Below, one piece after another: positions 226 to 20,451 of a stretch of DNA of 20,451 nucleotides. The stretch comes from a virus: positions 1 to 20,451 of IMG/VR virus record IMGVR_UViG_3300013126_000311. The stretch is one strand, 5' to 3'. The translations under genes and the position numbers were made by a program. Each line of letters opens with the position of its first letter. Position 1 is the stretch's first letter. A model generated the notes under the pieces. That model searched no databases, was not told the origin of the DNA, and saw only the letters and a program-made list of their open reading frames with translations.

Positions 226-627
226 TTAAATCTTTTTTATTAGTTCTACAAAATTAGTCGCTCCGGCTACATATCCTGCTTCTTTAAATGAGTTCACAAG
301 TGGATTGCTCATCGAGATAGAGTAACACAAAGAGAATCCGGCGACTTTCGCCATATTAGTTAATACCTCAATCAAATAGAGAAGCGCCTCTTTTCTCCCA
401 TCTTTATCCTTGTACTCAAAATTAGAGATAATAAACTCAATCCATGCTATGCCTGAGTTTGTCTGGTACAGGAATCCGGCACATACCGGAACCCCGTTAT
501 CGATAACCATAATGCCACCCTTGCCATTATCAGGAAGAATCTCCCTCAATGGAGGAGTCCATCTCCAGTCGCTCCACCACTTGGATAGCATATCATAATC
601 TACGTGTTCTAATCTTCGTACTTCCAT
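226..627 (-). CDS. GNAT-like acetyltransferase domain protein
   Basis: This 133-residue protein has the layout of a small GNAT N-acetyltransferase: an N-terminal MEVRRLEHVDYDMLSKWW helix, a central pair of strands (GGIMVIDNGVPVCAGFLYQ, about residues 37-55; AWIEFIISNF, about 61-70), a helix (KEALLYLIEVLTNMAKVAGF) and a C-terminal NSFKEAGYV segment like the last strand and helix of GNATs. From memory, similar proteins sit in the structural blocks of Bacteroidota phages. The classical acetyl-CoA loop (R/QxxGxG/A) is not obvious; YKDKDGRKEA stands where it would be expected, so catalysis is uncertain. The gene lies between the detached muzzle domain (19 bases upstream) and the next virion gene (1 base downstream), so a role in modifying a virion or host component is only a guess. 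A TATCTTTG box and a 10-bp inverted repeat overlap its start. Confidence 0.65.
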   Translation of the reverse strand: MEVRRLEHVDYDMLSKWWSDWRWTPPLREILPDNGKGGIMVIDNGVPVCAGFLYQTNSGIAWIEFIISNFEYKDKDGRKEALLYLIEVLTNMAKVAGFSLCYSISMSNPLVNSFKEAGYVAGATNFVELIKKI

Positions 628-666
628 AATGCAAAGATATTAAAATTTATGGATAGCTTTGCATTA
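627..666 (-). promoter_or_regulatory. 10-bp perfect inverted repeat over the start of the GNAT-like gene
   Basis: TAATGCAAAG at 627-636 and CTTTGCATTA at 657-666 are exact reverse complements separated by 20 A/T-rich bases. In the minus-strand transcript they would form a stem whose left arm is the end of the upstream coding region (stop codon 649-647, in the loop) and whose right arm ends at the first base of the ATG at 627-625. The arm contains most of a TATCTTTG -7-like box (632-639). It could be a protein-binding operator or an RNA hairpin that limits access to the start codon. The pairing is visible; the function is inferred. Confidence 0.5.
632..639 (-). promoter_or_regulatory. TATCTTTG, possible Bacteroidota -7 box before the GNAT-like gene
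   Basis: The minus strand reads TATCTTTG, which fits the Bacteroidota -7 consensus TAnnTTTG. No convincing TTTG -33 box lies 19-21 bases upstream. The box ends 4 bases before the ATG, so a transcript started here would be almost leaderless. It also lies inside an inverted repeat, which may be the real reason for the sequence. Confidence 0.3.
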
Positions 667-1432
667 CTTCAGCGTCAATCATAAATAATTCTTCATTAGC
701 ACTTGACGGATTGAGCGTCATATCAACAATCATTGTTTGTCCGAGGATTCCCATTGACTCTGCCGATCTGTTCTTTATAGCAAAAGCCGGCATTATGACT
801 GACTCAGGAGCATCCGTGGACCCGCTTATTGCAACCATCAATCTAAGCTCGCCTTCTACTACTGTCTGAGATATCCCATCGTATTTTCCAATCCACTTCG
901 TTTCAATCTCATCTATAACATACATGTAATCCCCTACAGATAACTGTTCCGGAACAGCGTATATTGATGCGTCGAAAATAAGCTCATGGTAATTTGCATC
1001 TCCGGTTACATCCGTTGTTGAGCCTATCCCCACAATGTGGCGGGCATCAGCATCGGTTATCACGACACTCGGAACTCCCTCTTCGCCTCTTATGTAGGCA
1101 TAAAAAACGCCTTCCTTCCTCTCGAACATATCAGGCTCAATGAACCCATCAGCTTGCACGTCCGTGCGAACCTCAACACCCCAAGCACTGTCTCCATTCA
1201 ATGATATCGCCTTGAACAGCTTCCTTTTCTCCGGGGAGTCGTTTATTACAGTCCTGATAGTCGAATCTGATTTGACCCCATAAAACGTGTTTACATCTCC
1301 GGAATTATGAAGATACAAATTGCCCTTGTTGAATGAGTAAAATTTCCCATCCATATACACCATGCTCTCAGGGGTGAAAGATAAAAATCTTGACCACCCC
1401 GCTGCGTTTGCTGTTATCGTATTACCTTCCAT
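647..1432 (-). CDS. Detached C-terminal domain of the muzzle/tail stabilization protein
   Basis: This 261-residue protein starts with a short lead, then AAGWSRFLSFTPESMVYMDGK, FYSFNKGNLYLHNSGDVNTFYGV and TIRTVINDSPEKRKLFKAISL. From memory, in one-piece crAss-like muzzle (P22 gp10-like) proteins this GWtSF..ytPE...FYsFk.G.LY.H block follows almost directly after the GGYDPxxNEY motif, in the same polypeptide. Here it is a separate gene. ATG at 1432 is preceded by a perfect AGGAGG (1440-1445) at a 7-base spacing, and it starts 2 bases after the TAA of the muzzle gene in the -1 frame. Its likely role is to complete the distal tail by assembling with the upstream product. Alternatives are an independent tail-tip protein, or a product made by rare frameshifting. 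The family link is strong to me; the split is seen directly. Confidence 0.75.
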   Translation of the reverse strand: MEGNTITANAAGWSRFLSFTPESMVYMDGKFYSFNKGNLYLHNSGDVNTFYGVKSDSTIRTVINDSPEKRKLFKAISLNGDSAWGVEVRTDVQADGFIEPDMFERKEGVFYAYIRGEEGVPSVVITDADARHIVGIGSTTDVTGDANYHELIFDASIYAVPEQLSVGDYMYVIDEIETKWIGKYDGISQTVVEGELRLMVAISGSTDAPESVIMPAFAIKNRSAESMGILGQTMIVDMTLNPSSANEELFMIDAEVMQSYP

Positions 1433-1434
1433 AT

Positions 1435-4400
1435 TTAAACCTCCTGTAATGGGATTACTTCTATAACAACGCTATTTTCGTTTATCAAAATTACAATTCC
1501 GGCTGTGGGTAGATATATATAACCAGAGCCTTGATAGTCCGCAGTTTTATCGACACCGTACAAGTCAAGATACATAGTATCGTCGATGTCAGGTATGTCT
1601 GCGCTTCCGTCGAAATACATCACATCAAGGCTACTACTATTAATAGCTTCATCCTGATACTGCTTAACAGGAGTTGCTTGAATCGCCTTTAACTCATTCC
1701 CGCATCCAACCGCAACGTCCGTAACCACGCTGTCTAATCCTATTGAGATATATCCGCTTCCGTACTTATAATTACCAGCAGGTGTCCCGTTCCCTGGGCG
1801 TACCAATTTAGTGACATACAAAGGGTCTATATAAATAGTATCTCCAACAGAAGGAGTGCCATCGACACCGGGATGATTGTAATACACCGTATCGAACGGG
1901 GCTATACACGCACTTGATTGTGTTTTATTTGATGATGATGACTTGAACCCGATTGGAGCGGAAACAGCTGAGCATGCGGTAACAACGTCAGCCCATCCAT
2001 TTTCATCAACCTCGGTATAAGAGTCAGACATTCTTATAACAGAATTAATCACAGGAGAGCTTCCAAATGGGTCGTCAAACATGAACGTTCCATCAGATAT
2101 AGACCCGCCGTCCATAGCGTAGAAATACTTAGTATCATTCAGCTCAGCTTCATCGCAAGGAGAAGCTTCTTCTGTTACTTTCATTTGGAATGACGGCAAG
2201 ACCTGTGGGCATGCCGGAGTTACCGTGAAATTCGTCCCATCACACAAAACATATATCCTCAACATAACCACATTCTCTTCTGTGGTTAAAACAGGGACTC
2301 CGACAAAATACCCGGTTGAAGATAAACTATCCAGTATGTATTTCTGTCCTTCATTAATAGTAATAAGCTCATTCGGCATACTACGAAATTCACCTGCCAG
2401 GAACTCGAAAACAGGAAGCGAGTATGATCCGGCTACCTCGCAAACCCCTATCTCATCTTTACCTATAAACACGGGAGCGTTATCAACGTCCGACTTCGCG
2501 ATACCATATCCAATCCATGATACTTTTGATATCCTGCTACCTGATGGATATGTGTATGCCATCACTCCAATGACACCAGAAGCAGAGTCTATTTTTATAT
2601 TGACAGGCATATGTCCGACATTCCCGCCGGTGTTTATTTTTATGTCGTAAATTCCCTTGTTAGCTCCGAGAACAACAAGGTCATCATCGCACTCAAGATG
2701 GCATCCGGGGCATTGAGATGTTGCGATACGGACATAGTCCTTAATCCTTACGACAGAAATACTATCAGAAAAATACTTGTCTTTGAATGGCAGGTTGCCA
2801 TTGTAGTCTTCTGCGTAGAATAAAGCAGTAGCTTTATCTATGGTATTCGCGTTTATATGATAAAATTCTGTAGCCGCGCAACACAGGGATGCATCGGAGT
2901 CTGATGATGATAATTCAACTTCCTTAATGGTTCTGAAGTCATAGACTAAGTAAATCACGTCGCTATCTCCAACCCCTACAGTCCCTTCTACTCCATCATT
3001 GTTATTTGAGCTAATGGCTATTGACTCAGCAAGCCCATCGAGTAACTCGGCCAAAGACAAGCTGTCGTTATCTGACTGAAACACCGCTATTCTTCTCGGC
3101 ATAGACGTAAATCCGCCAGCGGTAACGCCGGAGACTCCGATATACAAAGTGGAGTCATCTGTAGGGATTGAAGCGTACCCAACAGTTCCTGTTACCGTTT
3201 TCTCGAATGATGTATTTAGCGCATAATTTCCAACTACGACAGAGAACGAAGATTCGCTTCTCGGCGAGATATAATCCCCGTCTCTGTAGCTAAAATACAC
3301 GGAAGCTGACTTGTCCTCGTCATCATTACTCGTCATCACGAAGGTTTTAATTTTCCTTGTGCGAGGGATAAGGCATCCGACATTGAATTGAACAAACGCA
3401 TCTTCCTCCGGATCAAAAATCTCAACATCAACCCATCCCTGGTTTGCATTGTCTATGGTTACAGTAATTGTATCCCTATCTCCTGACTGAGCTGTAATAG
3501 GGCTCTCCATCCCTGTTACGAGGATTTTTACTGTATCGTTGGCGCTTTGTATGTAATAAAAGAAATCGACACTGCCCTCTCCTTTTTCAATGTAATATCT
3601 TTTTGTAAATGATGTGTCGTCCTGATTTACAACGACAGCCTCTGTATCCCCGCACTGTCCACTAATCTCATCAGCAGGCTTACTTATCTCTGTAAATGAA
3701 ACCGTGTACTCATTTACATGAGGGTCATACCCGCCGAGTATTATTTTCCCTTCGCTCCCGGATAACTTCTCGCGGAACCATTGAGTCATATACATATCTG
3801 ACATAATCGTTAGCTTGTCGTTTGAGTATGACTGTCCTTCCACCTTGATAACAGCGCCCCTCCTTTGGTCGACAAAGAATATGGACGATGCAAAACTGCA
3901 AAAGCTTTCCGGATTTACCGTTCCAAATTCCTCAATTCTTGCTATCTGAGTTCCAAGCACCTCTGGGATAGAAGCGACGCTACCACCATCAACAGAGTCT
4001 GATAAAAGATTCTTTCCGGTCAGAACATACGATATTTTATTCTCCTGAATAACCATAACGTCAGTGCCCCTGCCATGGGCGACCATAACCGGTCCAAAAG
4101 ACTCCTCAAGATGCTTATAATTCAACAGTCCGGATACAAATTGATTTAATTTGTCTGTGTTCGTGTCATCGTTATATGTACCACTCCATGTCCCGTCTGC
4201 AAATCTATCCACTCTCTTGACATCCGTATAAGCAGTAGCATAAGCCCTGTTTCCCAGATAAAACCTCCTCCCTGCTAAAGAGTCTTTTATTTTGAAGCTC
4301 TCTACGCCATTCCCGAAGCTGATACAATTAAAGTCGTCAAGACCTATAACACAAGCAGTGCCATTTGACAAATTTTGATTAGTTATATTGCCATAATGCT

Positions 4401-7257
4401 CTCCTGTTGTCTTATTGATTAAGAATGACTGAGACACTTCATAAAAAATTCCATTATCAACATTAGCAGCTTTTGTCTCGAATATAAACGATGTAATTCC
4501 GGACAGATACATTTGTATGTCGATGGACACAAGCGAGCGGCGCGAGTTCTCATACAGAACGCCGTTGCACATAGTAACACCCATCATATTAAGCGTTAAC
4601 TTACCATCTTCTAATACAAAGTAAAAAACATTATTCTTATCGGCATTCTCAGATTTCCATGCATTTATATTTCCCTCTGCCTCTGCCAGCGTATATGGAG
4701 CGTAGACATTATTCGTCAATACGCCAGGTTTATATACGCAGCTTAGCGGAGGCTTAGCTATATCACCAACAATGGAAGTTCCTGTGTTTAATATAGACGA
4801 AATACCTTCACCCTCCCAAAACCTCATGAAATCGTCATAATTTCTTGAAGCTCTGAATGTTTTAAATAAATCATACGACCTTTTCTCACAACTACCAGTT
4901 CCTTCTCTGGTAGACGAGATGCTCATTTTTATAATACTTCCCTCCGGAATTGGAACGTTTCCGCTCGCATCGTATAATGGGTATGACAAAAATGGGCAAA
5001 TATACGAATTGTTTATATCTATGAGTGCGGTATCCGTAACCGTTGTCTTTTTCCCCGGTGTAAATATAGTGCTATCCGTTACGTTCAGCCCACTTGACGC
5101 CAATTTTATGTAAGTTCCGGACGGGATTACTTTGCCTTGTATTCCAATAAAATTTTCTTCCTGGTCTTTCTTCTCAAGAACCTGAACCTCGATAAGCGAT
5201 TTTGTAGCGCCATAAGAGTCAGACTTAACAATGAGGTAATCATCCTCCTTCACCTTCCTTGCATTCTCTCCCGTCAAAAGGAAGTACGCAAACTTACTGG
5301 CCGGGTCATTGAAAAAGAATGAGCTAAAAACATTCTCATACGATCCGGCCGACTCTCTGATTGCAAACTTAAATCCGTGAGCCCATTCAGGCGCTCTTTG
5401 CGTGTCCGGGATAATGACTTTTGCAGTATTTTTACTTGCTGACTTACCCGCATCAATAAAGAATGATGAACCTTGCCCAACGAGAGCTGGCGTACTTCTT
5501 CCGTATTTATCAAAATAAATCATCCCAACCTGATAGCTTCTATTACTCTTCAGACTTTTAGTTGGAGCTGGATTCTTTACCTTAACCGTAGCTGTCGATA
5601 TCGACAAATACCAAACAATGTATTTCGATGGGGTGTCAATATACTGCATGGCAGGTATTTGTATCCCTATGACGCTTGACCCCTGTGACGCAATTATTTT
5701 GGCCGGCTCTTTAATCGTGCTGATTCCGGATGCAGTCTTATTAAAATCCCCAAGACTATCCGGCATTATGCTATTGAAAACATCCGTAAAAGTCCCAACG
5801 GCTACCTTTGATAAGTCCGTATTTATGTTCTGAGCGGTTCCAATAGCGCTCTTAAATTCAGAGCTTTGAGCAAACTCAAACACGCTTGCGTAATTCCCGG
5901 CTAACACTATAGAGTAAGCTACAACGATTGCGGATGATGGGGGCTCCGGAGCTACCGCTCCGCCTATAAGAGCGTATGATCCGGACACAACATCAAGCTG
6001 TATCGTAATCACATTTCCAGCGATTAACGATATTCCGCTTAAATCCATGTTAAATACACTATTCTCTTTGTATCCGGAGACTCCCAGGTTATAATTCGCT
6101 CCGGCCTTTACAACGCCAATGCTCGTTTCGCTTGTAGACACGGGAGATGCTGAAAAATTAACATTAATCGGGAAGCCAAATTTATCAATCAAATCAAAAC
6201 CATCTGAATAGTTCCAGTAAGACAACCTGTTACCCATATAAGTCTGAGCCTCGGCTTTAAACGGAACATTGTCATACAGCCTTAATATCTCATAATCAGG
6301 TAGCACTGATACATATTTATCTTCATCAAATAATACTACCTTTGACGTGTTGTCAGGAATCCCCAGCTTCACTTTGTTTATTTTGCTGATTACATAGATA
6401 GTCGGTGTATCTGCATACTTAAACAATAGCTCTATTTCAGCCACATTTGCCGGACCTGAGTTGTATGTTATCTTAACTCCGGTGGCGGCGTTAATCATCC
6501 CTTTGTTTGTGGCATCGTCATCATCAAGGTCAAAAACAGCAGGGTAAAACGCCGGCAATGTGAATTGTGATGTAGCCGAGTATTGACCGTTGAAATATTT
6601 GTAGCGATACGCAAAACAATAAGTCTTATCGCGCATAAAAGAGTCCTCCCTTACTGTATAGTCAGGCGTAATCACCGGAGCCTGTAATGGGGGTGCTTTA
6701 ATAACAAGAATATCGTCTTCTGTTGAATAAGAGTACGTCTTTGATAAAACGATCTGCCTCGGCTCGTTAATACCGTCAGTGAAATACATAACCCCATCAA
6801 CGATATTAATGGCTGAAATCCTTCTGTTTTTGTTGAACTTTAAGATGGTGTCAGATTCAACGCCGGGCTCAAGCAGGGCAGTGCTAACTATAACGTACTT
6901 TAGGTTATAATTGTTCCTGGCATTTGCGCCAACAATCATATCTGTTTTATACTCGAGCTGTTCAACGCCGTATGTGCGAGTGTCTGTTACCAACCAATAG
7001 ATGTGCCCGGTCTCTTCATCTGCGATACTTCCAACACAAACAGCATCATCGCTGAGCTCTGTGAATGTAGGCGTAGCGATAACAGACATCTTACTGTTAC
7101 CGACAACTGGCTTAACAACTCCGGAGTTGTCAGTCGAACCGTCTCCGACTTGTATGTTTACGGCGTCAATATACTGACCGTCCGGAACAAGGCGTTCATC
7201 AAAACTCTTGTTCATTATGCCTTTAGTGAAATTTCTTGATATTTTACCTGATGCCAT
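1435..7257 (-). CDS. Giant tail muzzle/stabilization protein (P22 gp10-like, crAss type)
   Basis: This 1940-residue protein is the largest gene in the window. Its N-terminus (NFTKGIMNKSFDERLVPDGQ, then YIDAVNIQVG) and the motifs ADEETGHIYWLVTD, ILKFNKNRRISAINIVDG and VMYFTDGINEPRQI are hallmarks, as I remember them, of the crAss-like stabilization/muzzle protein that closes the short tail. The body runs to about residue 1190 and ends in IILGGYDPHVNEYTVSF. The remaining 745 residues are an acidic, Ser/Gly-rich, beta-type extension with Ig-like strands, a CPGCHLEC cluster (residues about 1516-1523) and three degenerate repeats near the end. A domain that normally follows the GGYDP motif is encoded by the next gene. 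I place the start at ATG 7257, overlapping the upstream TGA as TGATG; a GTG one codon earlier is possible. Position after two ring-type genes supports a tail role. Confidence 0.85.
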   Translation of the reverse strand: MASGKISRNFTKGIMNKSFDERLVPDGQYIDAVNIQVGDGSTDNSGVVKPVVGNSKMSVIATPTFTELSDDAVCVGSIADEETGHIYWLVTDTRTYGVEQLEYKTDMIVGANARNNYNLKYVIVSTALLEPGVESDTILKFNKNRRISAINIVDGVMYFTDGINEPRQIVLSKTYSYSTEDDILVIKAPPLQAPVITPDYTVREDSFMRDKTYCFAYRYKYFNGQYSATSQFTLPAFYPAVFDLDDDDATNKGMINAATGVKITYNSGPANVAEIELLFKYADTPTIYVISKINKVKLGIPDNTSKVVLFDEDKYVSVLPDYEILRLYDNVPFKAEAQTYMGNRLSYWNYSDGFDLIDKFGFPINVNFSASPVSTSETSIGVVKAGANYNLGVSGYKENSVFNMDLSGISLIAGNVITIQLDVVSGSYALIGGAVAPEPPSSAIVVAYSIVLAGNYASVFEFAQSSEFKSAIGTAQNINTDLSKVAVGTFTDVFNSIMPDSLGDFNKTASGISTIKEPAKIIASQGSSVIGIQIPAMQYIDTPSKYIVWYLSISTATVKVKNPAPTKSLKSNRSYQVGMIYFDKYGRSTPALVGQGSSFFIDAGKSASKNTAKVIIPDTQRAPEWAHGFKFAIRESAGSYENVFSSFFFNDPASKFAYFLLTGENARKVKEDDYLIVKSDSYGATKSLIEVQVLEKKDQEENFIGIQGKVIPSGTYIKLASSGLNVTDSTIFTPGKKTTVTDTALIDINNSYICPFLSYPLYDASGNVPIPEGSIIKMSISSTREGTGSCEKRSYDLFKTFRASRNYDDFMRFWEGEGISSILNTGTSIVGDIAKPPLSCVYKPGVLTNNVYAPYTLAEAEGNINAWKSENADKNNVFYFVLEDGKLTLNMMGVTMCNGVLYENSRRSLVSIDIQMYLSGITSFIFETKAANVDNGIFYEVSQSFLINKTTGEHYGNITNQNLSNGTACVIGLDDFNCISFGNGVESFKIKDSLAGRRFYLGNRAYATAYTDVKRVDRFADGTWSGTYNDDTNTDKLNQFVSGLLNYKHLEESFGPVMVAHGRGTDVMVIQENKISYVLTGKNLLSDSVDGGSVASIPEVLGTQIARIEEFGTVNPESFCSFASSIFFVDQRRGAVIKVEGQSYSNDKLTIMSDMYMTQWFREKLSGSEGKIILGGYDPHVNEYTVSFTEISKPADEISGQCGDTEAVVVNQDDTSFTKRYYIEKGEGSVDFFYYIQSANDTVKILVTGMESPITAQSGDRDTITVTIDNANQGWVDVEIFDPEEDAFVQFNVGCLIPRTRKIKTFVMTSNDDEDKSASVYFSYRDGDYISPRSESSFSVVVGNYALNTSFEKTVTGTVGYASIPTDDSTLYIGVSGVTAGGFTSMPRRIAVFQSDNDSLSLAELLDGLAESIAISSNNNDGVEGTVGVGDSDVIYLVYDFRTIKEVELSSSDSDASLCCAATEFYHINANTIDKATALFYAEDYNGNLPFKDKYFSDSISVVRIKDYVRIATSQCPGCHLECDDDLVVLGANKGIYDIKINTGGNVGHMPVNIKIDSASGVIGVMAYTYPSGSRISKVSWIGYGIAKSDVDNAPVFIGKDEIGVCEVAGSYSLPVFEFLAGEFRSMPNELITINEGQKYILDSLSSTGYFVGVPVLTTEENVVMLRIYVLCDGTNFTVTPACPQVLPSFQMKVTEEASPCDEAELNDTKYFYAMDGGSISDGTFMFDDPFGSSPVINSVIRMSDSYTEVDENGWADVVTACSAVSAPIGFKSSSSNKTQSSACIAPFDTVYYNHPGVDGTPSVGDTIYIDPLYVTKLVRPGNGTPAGNYKYGSGYISIGLDSVVTDVAVGCGNELKAIQATPVKQYQDEAINSSSLDVMYFDGSADIPDIDDTMYLDLYGVDKTADYQGSGYIYLPTAGIVILINENSVVIEVIPLQEV
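1438..2160 (-). repeat. Three degenerate protein-level repeats at the end of the muzzle protein
   Basis: Three segments of the muzzle C-terminus share one pattern: DTKYFYAMDGGSISDGTFMF (from about residue 1708), DTVYYN..GTPSVGDTIYID (about 1788) and DVMYFDGSADIPDIDDTMYL (about 1878). The second and third are each followed by a YGSGYI/YQGSGYI segment and a V-rich strand; the first has only a weak counterpart. The first two end in a Cys. The unit is roughly 65-90 residues. The pattern D-x-x-Y-[FY]...GD-T-[IM]-Y-x-D...G-x-G-Y-I resembles small beta repeats I associate with surface and tail proteins of Bacteroidota and their phages. DNA identity is low, so the duplications are old. A role in receptor or glycan contact is inference. 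Confidence 0.55.
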
Positions 7258-8153
7258 CACTTTATAGTTTTAGAAGCTCCACGCACATTCATAAGCAATC
7301 TACCGGGGTGCATATTACTCATCCTTAATTTTGCGTTCCGAAGAAGGGCGCTTTTCTCTTTTCTTGCCCTCACAACAATATACTCCTGAACCCCGAGCTT
7401 TGATTTTAATATCTCGTAGTTTATGTAGGCATAAATAAATGCCTCAAAGAACTTATTTACCGATATGTTTGTGTTATCTCCACGCTCCATTCCGTCGCTT
7501 ATATACTCGAGGATACACGTCTCTCCGCTGACATTAGAGCTAAAGTCAATAACCCCGAGCTTTTTATTAATCCTGAAAGTGGGGTTGGCGTTTGCAGTCT
7601 CTGAGTTAGAGCCATATCTACCTCCAACGCTAATGCCATAATGCCAGTTGCCATCAATATATCTACCAGGAAGCTCATTCTCATTAAAGCTCCTGTTCAT
7701 GTAGATATCGTTCATGTCGCCCGATATTCTGTCGTTATTCATCTGAGTGTCGTACTCTTTGATAACATATCCATCTTCATCGAAAACGAGCTCACCACCA
7801 GAGACCTTGTATTTTTCTGACGTAATAGCTCTTATGTTTTCACTCAAAGGCATCAGTGTATGATCCTTATAGATAGATATTCTAACCCAATTTACATAGT
7901 CCGGTGGGAGGACAACCTTCAGCATGTCTGATATGGTAGTCTCAAGAACCTTCAGCTCTTTAGCTGCGTCATAATGCAACTCCTGAATAGCCCTTTTTGC
8001 GTGGAATAATATCAAATTCCTTTCGACATTGTTCACCAACTGGTGATTTCCGGTATATCCTATCTGGAAGCCAGAAACGATATCAACAAGTGATATATAC
8101 TGATATGAGCCCGACGACCCGTCGTAGTATTGCTCGTCTGTTATATACGCCAT
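7257..8153 (-). CDS. Ring/connector-type structural protein, crAss-like
   Basis: This 298-residue protein has an N-terminal half that I recognise as conserved in crAss-like and related Bacteroidota phages: YYDGSSGSYQYISLVDIVSG, then VERNLILFHAKRAIQELHYD, then LKVVLPPDYVNWVRISIY. The C-terminal half contains FFEAFIYAYINYEILKSK and a basic ARKEKSALLRNAKLRMSN helix. In crAss-like virions, proteins encoded between capsid and muzzle genes form stacked rings joining portal to tail; this is the most likely role, but I cannot say which ring. The start ATG overlaps the upstream TAA as TAATG, and the stop TGA overlaps the muzzle ATG, so the three tail genes are tightly coupled. No catalytic motif or membrane segment is seen. 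Confidence 0.7.
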   Translation of the reverse strand: MAYITDEQYYDGSSGSYQYISLVDIVSGFQIGYTGNHQLVNNVERNLILFHAKRAIQELHYDAAKELKVLETTISDMLKVVLPPDYVNWVRISIYKDHTLMPLSENIRAITSEKYKVSGGELVFDEDGYVIKEYDTQMNNDRISGDMNDIYMNRSFNENELPGRYIDGNWHYGISVGGRYGSNSETANANPTFRINKKLGVIDFSSNVSGETCILEYISDGMERGDNTNISVNKFFEAFIYAYINYEILKSKLGVQEYIVVRARKEKSALLRNAKLRMSNMHPGRLLMNVRGASKTIK

Positions 8154-8881
8154 TATTCTTCTGTTTTAACTTGTTCTTGTTTTGCGAAAGAATACACATC
8201 GGAATCCCTTATAGAGACGCCTGCATATTGAAGTATCTTGATTATCAAATCAATCTCAAATTCTTCCCCTATCTCAAAGTCCTGATAGTCCGATATTCCA
8301 GGATTAAACATGAATACATTTGTAGATATTTGGCTATACGTCCATTTTGGGGGAAGAGGGAACCTGCTATATGTGAGCTCGACACCTCCGGTATCGTAAA
8401 AGCTTGGATAAACAAGCATTTTGCCGCCAAGAACAGCATAAACAGGGAAATCTTTGCTCGGCTTAGTCAAAAGAGAATTGTTAAGCTGCCTTGCCTTCGA
8501 TGGAGTAGCCCTATCTGCCGTGCCTTTATATATCTTCGGGTCAAACTCATCACCGGTATCAAAACAGAGCACATCTTCTATCCTGTATAGCAGATATTCA
8601 GTTGCGAGCGAAAATGAAGGAGGCGTGTCGATTTTATCAAGGTCTTCTGTAACGAGAAACTTTTCTATAGTCGTTTGTATATCAAAAGACTTATCGGCAA
8701 ATCCAGTACCGGCGAGCCTCACATTCTCTTTGTTTATCGCGTCATTATACTCTGAAAACAAAGACCTGAAAATGTCAAGCTGCGCGAGATTTGCATACAG
8801 ATTAAAGTCCGATGGGGACAGATAGCCATAATTATTCTTATTCATTATGGCAAGCACGGTATTTCTTACTTGGTCTATCAT
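8153..8881 (-). CDS. Ring/connector-type structural protein, crAss-like
   Basis: This 242-residue protein begins with VRNTVLAIMNKNNYGYLSPS, then DFNLYANLAQLDIFRSLF, an N-terminal pattern (VxNxVLxIxNKxxxGYxxPxxFNxxAxxAQxDIF) that recurs in structural proteins of Bacteroidota phages, including crAss-like ones. A middle segment FPVYAVLGGKMLVYPSFYDTG and the C-terminal FEIDLIIKILQYAGVSIRDSD helix are also typical. The likely role is a head-to-tail ring or adaptor protein. It is the first gene after a strong terminator and a TATCTTTG box, so it probably heads the tail transcription unit. It is followed by a TAATG overlap with the next ring-type gene. The leader before ATG 8881 is A/T-rich without a Shine-Dalgarno site. 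Confidence 0.7.
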   Translation of the reverse strand: MIDQVRNTVLAIMNKNNYGYLSPSDFNLYANLAQLDIFRSLFSEYNDAINKENVRLAGTGFADKSFDIQTTIEKFLVTEDLDKIDTPPSFSLATEYLLYRIEDVLCFDTGDEFDPKIYKGTADRATPSKARQLNNSLLTKPSKDFPVYAVLGGKMLVYPSFYDTGGVELTYSRFPLPPKWTYSQISTNVFMFNPGISDYQDFEIGEEFEIDLIIKILQYAGVSIRDSDVYSFAKQEQVKTEE

Positions 8882-20171: not shown

Positions 20172-20451
20172 TTAGTAGTCTTTGATTAATAGGATATATG
20201 CACCATAATTCTTTGTAAAAGATAATATGAAATAGCTATTGTTATCCATTATTAAAACTCTTTTATCTGAATCTGCGATTAAAAAAGACATACTTGCTTT
20301 ATTTGCCCCAAACGCACCTGATGTATCTCTATATCCTCCACCCAGCACCGTCAATCCACTTGTATTCGTACCATTGGCGCTCGTCCAATAATTAGTTCCC
20401 ATCGCCTTCAATCCTGCTACACCAACAGCCTCGATAATCGCTGTCCATTCC
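20172..20451 (-). CDS. FISUMP-like surface/tail protein, C-terminal end (runs off right edge)
   Basis: Only the last 92 residues are inside the window. They read EWTAIIEAVGVAGLKAMGTN, YWTSANGTNTSGLTVLGGGY, RDTSGAFGANKASMSFLIAD, then a C-terminal FTKNYGAYILLIKDY. This follows the FISUMP (Fib_succ_major, TIGR02145-type) pattern: eW..l....G.....aGxkLKa.Gt..W....gaTNssGf.alpgGyRd.sGsF, then a terminal k.yG..vrlikD. The usual YWWSST centre is replaced by SMSFLIAD. FISUMP modules are C-type-lectin-like or surface-exposed repeats, common in Bacteroidota proteins and in tail fibres of their phages. A receptor-binding tail fibre tip is the likely role. The coding frame is open to the window edge with no start codon needed. 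Confidence 0.7.
   Translation of the reverse strand, partial: EWTAIIEAVGVAGLKAMGTNYWTSANGTNTSGLTVLGGGYRDTSGAFGANKASMSFLIADSDKRVLIMDNNSYFILSFTKNYGAYILLIKDY

Follow-up and report, generated by a model that had tools for sequence, protein, structure and literature searches.

An IMG/VR virus fragment of 20,451 bases (record IMGVR_UViG_3300013126_000311; the whole stretch is called the window here), with portal, terminase and virion genes on the minus strand, carries a homologue of the crAss-like phage muzzle in two adjacent genes instead of one. The first gene encodes a large chain of 1941 amino acids (aa) when read from an in-frame GTG at 7260, or 1940 aa from the ATG at 7257. The first ~1190 residues of this chain correspond to the muzzle body. 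The motif GGYDPHVNEY is found at residue 1176 (counted from the GTG), leaving ~755 residues C-terminal to it. The large gene is closed by a TAA at 1437-1435, and the second gene, beginning with the ATG at 1432, encodes a distal chain of 261 aa whose N-terminus reads GWSRFLSFTPE..FYSFNKGNLYLHN..FYG. Because the two genes are in different reading frames, with the TAA between them, readthrough of the stop codon cannot join them. A preliminary description, made from the sequence alone, had placed a break in the muzzle between its GGYDP and GWxSF motifs, where a large extension rich in beta structure was added and a 261-residue gene of its own carried the distal domain. Both open reading frames were found at these places, both chains gave matching profiles (see below), and the beta-rich character of the extension was borne out by AlphaFold2 for its proximal part. 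The features of the locus are listed in Table 1.

Table 1. Features of the split muzzle locus and its neighbours, in window positions
Feature	Position	Strand	Basis
Muzzle large chain	1435..7257 (stop codon included)	(-)	PHROG_14478; alignment to muzzle homologues from Cellulophaga, Flavobacterium and ctfjg026
GGYDPHVNEY motif, the final conserved body strand ahead of the break	3706..3735	(-)	Sequence and profile alignment
Proximal extension domain, about residues 1190-1465	2866..3693	(-)	Profile from 22 relatives; AlphaFold2
Distal module, about residues 1467-1769, fused in frame	1954..2862	(-)	blastp and alignment A7 to intervening proteins; AlphaFold2 pLDDT mostly 70-95
Terminal ~170 residues, two similar Y-rich stretches	1438..1944	(-)	AlphaFold2 pLDDT <50; little likeness to relatives
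AGGAGG ahead of the distal gene, within the last codons of the large chain	1440..1445	(-)	Sequence
Muzzle distal chain, 261 aa	647..1432	(-)	PF25729 crAss_MUZ_C; gp44 alignment
crAss_MUZ_C domain, residues 45-116 of the distal chain	1085..1300	(-)	Pfam hmmscan
Upstream virion structural neighbour, conserved, survey anchor	7257..8153	(-)	PHROG_13977, E 1.8e-44; 577 IMG/VR relatives
Downstream small neighbour, conserved	226..627	(-)	PHROG_17252, E 8.1e-42; same place in ctfjg026 and Panino
pLDDT, predicted local distance difference test; E, expectation value.

The large chain matched PHROG_14478 (virion structural protein) over residues 9-1321 with an E of 7.8e-151. The distal chain, for its part, is similar to muzzle C-termini, as it matched PF25729 crAss_MUZ_C in a Pfam hmmscan (E 2.7e-15; 57 bits against a cut-off of 27). 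Relatives that pair with the large chain along the muzzle body match PF25731 crAss_MUZ (survey loci L098, 6.4e-9, and L107, 8e-15). Profile alignments linked both chains to gp44, the muzzle protein of phicrAss001: residues 1042-1193 of the large chain aligned to gp44 1049-1198, weakly and with a probability of 85, and residues 5-86 of the distal chain aligned to gp44 ~1202-1284 with a probability of 95. A phmmer search of the large chain against Protein Data Bank (PDB) chains returned no muzzle, and the profile of the distal alignment A1 found no PDB chain at E 0.1. In the one-piece relative L107, the PF25731 match runs to profile position 1223 of 1224 and PF25729 follows directly, which identifies the window's two chains as neighbouring parts of one protein. 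Thus the muzzle is split in the window, and both of its chains are homologous to the muzzle, with PHROG and Pfam scores far better than chance would give. A crAss-like muzzle is a single polypeptide; with two genes in different frames, the window's protein is described here as a two-chain variant rather than as an ordinary member. Among isolates, the nearest are members of Pachyviridae, Pervagoviridae and Elemovirus, and the order Crassvirales is absent from their taxonomy lines; the comparison is one of structural homologues.

The gp44 alignments are consecutive, the first running to 1198 and the second starting at ~1202, so the break maps to a single hairpin, and next to no residues are lost between the two chains. 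In the published account (PMC10172136), gp44 comprises a ring-joining domain, a crass domain and a propeller of seven blades into which immunoglobulin (Ig) domains are inserted, IG2 lying between 318 and 1021. Since IG2 ends at 1021, gp44 ~1200 should fall in the late propeller, and by this published domain text the break, at gp44 ~1198-1202, should lie inside the beta-propeller of phicrAss001. The extension had been described as inserted at the boundary of two domains; the break instead appears to interrupt a propeller hairpin and not a junction between independent domains.

Profile searches were performed over 126 sequences (the window, phage records and IMG/VR loci) to assess how widely the split occurs. 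The IMG/VR loci were retrieved by anchoring on the upstream structural protein (PHROG_13977) together with a two-sequence distal alignment, the full distal alignment A1 being too diverse for scanning IMG/VR. Scans of IMG/VR with either window protein singly confirmed nothing, and no relative turned up when bacterial genomes were scanned. Both muzzle parts were present in 68 of the 126 sequences, split at the window's hairpin in 63 and in one piece in five, a ratio that is no estimate of prevalence because retrieval was seeded from the window's own lineage; 57 loci were left once near-copies had been removed. Among the phage records, those of Cellulophaga phages phi13:2, phi18:3, phi19:3 and phi46:3 and of ctfjg026 are split, and those of the Flavobacterium elemo phages, Cellulophaga phage phi38:1 and Tenacibaculum phage Gundel are in one piece. 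None of the 63 split large chains has a distal domain of its own, and a complete one-piece muzzle beside a spare distal gene was seen in no surveyed locus; the joint retention of both genes in split loci is in part a product of how the survey was built. The arrangement, first regarded as an unusual rearrangement in the window phage, is therefore shared by dozens of relatives, including cultured Cellulophaga phages. Judged by these comparisons, the split at the presumed propeller hairpin belongs to the standard build of an entire group of environmental phages and is no oddity of one genome. A description of a split muzzle was not found in those parts of the open-access literature that were searched, where muzzle length variation is attributed to insertions in the crass and IG2 regions and the atomic muzzle model is described as a single chain.

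The distal gene had also been credited with its own AGGAGG ribosome site. This hexamer is indeed present at 1445-1440, and among the window's ~20 listed gene starts that of the distal gene alone has it just ahead. It carries little weight because four further copies occur on the coding strand away from listed gene starts, and because Shine-Dalgarno-like sites of any kind precede the distal gene in only 9 of the 63 split loci and are rare there in relatives.

The extension at the break had been viewed as a single insertion of ~745 residues. About 750 residues do follow the motif (751 in the window, the longest of the 63 split loci, the others having 262-557), but they are composite. The extension and the intervening proteins introduced below were aligned and modelled apart, as a joint MAFFT alignment spread both over the same columns. 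A profile built from 22 relatives over the first ~280 residues past the motif matched the window (3.4e-16), phi13:2 (5.7e-39) and split large chains generally; it matched no one-piece muzzle. AlphaFold2 predicted residues 1176-1490 to be nearly all beta (mean pLDDT 81), and a Foldseek comparison of the proximal-domain model with the PDB gave generic beta-sandwich matches only.

In many relatives the large chain stops after this proximal extension with a Cys-rich tail, and a separate gene of 154-634 aa comes next, followed by the distal muzzle gene. The proteins encoded by these intervening genes begin YYLDxxxLxxATAVYTDxxLTxxAxDGFYSDGxIxREQ..CPSC. Window residues 1467-1769 matched them by blastp (L024, 2.4e-18; L030, 1.1e-14; L067, 2e-13), and the matches begin at residues 2-7 of the intervening proteins. 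This alignment resolves the window's ~750 residues into the shared extension, a fused intervening protein and a tail of ~170 residues. The distal module otherwise resembles predicted viral proteins without names. The intervening gene is thus separate and between the two muzzle halves in most relatives, and the special feature of the window is its in-frame fusion to the large chain. The same kind of fusion is found in the L098-L108 group. L017 has no intervening gene, and L047 and L055/L057 carry the module both fused and free. Intervening proteins such as those at L088:8641-9948 and L084:11849-12769 form an unnamed family with a CPxC-ending module of ~65 residues, sometimes in three tandem copies.

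For the trees, the extension was removed and the muzzle body alone used. One clade (support 100) unites the main split group, and the window lies inside it (support 99) on a long branch. Phage phi13:2 falls outside this clade, and a single origin of all split muzzles was not rejected (approximately unbiased test, p-AU 0.267). Because the phi13:2 proximal extension is homologous, a single origin with later reversion to the one-piece form and exchange between phages are both possible. In three comparisons between relatives, the mean identities of body and distal chain were nearly equal (84.5/86.0, 67.8/67.6 and 59.1/60.7 percent). Those of the proximal extension were 76.6, 49.1 and 42.4 percent, and the intervening protein gave the lowest values (64.1, 37.7 and 35.6 percent). 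Such a rate pattern would be expected of a body and distal chain that work as a single machine and of modules that evolve under diversifying or relaxed pressure. Positions that are invariant in one-piece muzzles are preserved in the distal chain.

Evidence from virions comes from phi18:3, a relative in which the large chain (gp114) and the distal chain (gp115) are both annotated in GenBank from experimental tandem mass spectrometry (MS/MS) proteomics; detection of both chains in virions had been proposed as a check on the split. The GenBank notes of phi13:2 and phi19:3 cite 'phi8:3_gp112-123', which by its gene numbers appears to be phi18:3.

These results suggest, in our judgement probably, a muzzle built of two chains, with its propeller completed in trans and exchangeable modules displayed from the broken hairpin. 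Both genes together would form one muzzle; in crAss-like podoviruses this large assembly closes the tail tip. The ring-joining, Ig and crass domains would be formed by the large chain, together with the greater part of the seven-bladed propeller, and at the late-propeller hairpin it would exit instead of turning back. Past this exit would stand the conserved all-beta domain pair and, in the window phage, the fused accessory module, which most relatives would supply from a separate gene. The 261-residue chain would open with the partner strand of the hairpin and add the remaining propeller and the C-terminal domain, so that two chains complete the propeller. The broken hairpin may then be the port through which beta-rich modules leave; these change fast and probably touch the host surface. 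Assembly of the two chains in one hexamer and exposure of the modules at the tip are presumed in this model. Contact with the host is suggested indirectly by the fast divergence and modular exchange, by a Big_9/cadherin-like domain (2e-20) within the extension of phi13:2 gp120 (L005:2141-6982), and by a published suggestion that the muzzle tip (the crass domain in gp44) contacts the cell (PMC10172136). The adhesion role proposed for the extension in the preliminary description would be plausible.

Several points weigh against the two-chain model. The large chain (P0001) has no Pfam crAss_MUZ (PF25731) match at E 0.1, and its link to gp44 is made through PHROG_14478, the PF25731-matching relatives and the weak profile alignment. 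The distal module matched no PDB structure at E 0.001. The MS/MS statement for phi18:3 is a GenBank note, known from the annotation alone. Finally, the fast divergence of the modules fits host contact and also mere surface exposure.

The modules may instead have a purely structural role, bracing adjacent muzzle subunits or plugging the tail without host contact. The proximal extension is kept clade-wide without a known ligand, and both its C-terminal Cys cluster and the CPxC of the next module could form cross-links. We consider this unlikely, as the distal modules differ greatly even between near relatives (L098 and L108 are 83 percent identical in the body and 44 percent in the distal part), which would be unusual for an internal brace.

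Still less probable is that the distal chain is an independent tail-tip protein derived from the muzzle C-terminus and lying outside the propeller, which the large chain would close with its own extension. In its favour, the proximal extension is predicted to be nearly all beta and starts where the missing strands would lie. However, the distal chain diverges at the same rate as the body while the extension diverges faster, it retains the one-piece muzzles' invariant positions, and no surveyed locus holds a second copy of the distal domain.

We give similarly little credence to the extension and intervening protein being an enzyme, such as a surface-glycan hydrolase, and not a module for binding. 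In ctfjg026 the intervening protein bears the name putative glycosidase, and glycosidases are among the top Foldseek matches of the proximal domain. These matches have template modelling scores (TM-scores) of about 0.14-0.2 and a root-mean-square deviation near 19, and so reflect generic beta-sandwich parts. In addition, no Pfam domain was found in ten intervening proteins, and the conserved positions of alignment A7 are mostly cysteines and glycines.

That the stop is a sequencing or assembly error, an intron, an intein or a recoded codon, with a single chain as the true product, is highly improbable: crAss-like phages do have introns, inteins and alternative genetic codes (PMC7886860) and Maribacter phage Panino has a frameshifted muzzle, but the same break recurs in dozens of separate contigs, the window genes differ in frame across a TAA, most relatives hold a whole gene between the halves, and the phi18:3 proteins are annotated as separate by MS/MS. 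A group I intron or intein was rejected because no Rfam family matched in the window and six relatives and the Pfam scan of the window chains showed no splicing domain; readthrough and sequencing error were likewise dropped as explanations, after the frame check and the survey of relatives.

Other arrangements of the muzzle were observed among the surveyed loci. Panino (L004) was rejected as a split muzzle, as its frameshift is at another site in the gene; its annotated two-gene muzzle (8600-8760) is a simple frameshift near a T/C tract, either a sequencing error or a true frameshift. A second, different break is seen in IMG/VR loci L114-L126 (for example L117:4690-10546), where a first reading frame of 1074-1728 aa holds the N-terminal part of the muzzle profile and a second of 407-626 aa holds the last part and crAss_MUZ_C. 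Muzzles therefore seem to be broken at two separate sites. At L061:16087-17961, a DUF5122 beta-propeller (PF17164, 7.4e-31) is fused N-terminally to the distal chain, the reverse of the window's fusion, and PHROG_38031 (460 aa) may resemble this product.

The muzzle genes of the window come after the PHROG_14543 and PHROG_13977 virion proteins, an order shared with phi13:2, phi38:1 and elemo. The downstream PHROG_17252 neighbour is named N-terminal acetyltransferase complex subunit in ctfjg026. A fragment at 20172-20450 (-), open at the window end and containing GTNYWTSANGTNTSGLTVLGGGYRD, presumably resembles a C-type-lectin-like or Fib_succ_major-type domain; a Pfam search at 0.01 gave it no match.

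More broadly, and with less confidence than for the two-chain muzzle itself, we suggest that a large environmental crAss-like group may have opened its tail-tip propeller at one hairpin, that a second chain completes it, and that the free end became a port for exchangeable host-contact modules, docked or fused. The muzzle controls the ejection of cargo and probably makes contact with the cell, in a phage group that is very abundant. If the suggestion holds, a muzzle of two chains that carries a variable module at a fixed port would point to a candidate determinant of host range in many environmental phages, and its presence in cultured Cellulophaga phages makes it testable.

Among known systems, the nozzle gp12 of phage T7 is described in the literature (PMC10172136) as having ring-joining and propeller domains similar to those of gp44; it is without the other three gp44 domains. 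The gp44 of phicrAss001 (Steigviridae; PDB 7qok, 7qol and 8ckb) shares with the window a homologous late propeller and C-terminal region; it is one chain of 1371 aa with no extension, whereas the window has two chains and ~750 residues added at the hairpin. The one-piece muzzles of the Flavobacterium elemo phages, Cellulophaga phi38:1 (Pervagoviridae) and Tenacibaculum Gundel are whole-muzzle homologues with the same distal domain, and differ in being single chains with merely 4-19 residues between the two profile regions. The Baltivirus phages phi13:2, phi18:3, phi19:3 and phi46:3 (Pachyviridae), with a large and a small structural gene, have the same break, a homologous proximal extension and a small distal chain of 241 aa, and no gene lies between the halves; they differ in an extension of ~500 aa, which in phi13:2 holds the Big_9/cadherin-like domain, and phi13:2 differs further in its place outside the main split clade. 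Caudoviricetes ctfjg026 (MW202828) and ~50 IMG/VR contigs share the clade, the break and the proximal extension, with distal chains up to 38 percent identical; in them the intervening gene is usually separate where the window has it fused.

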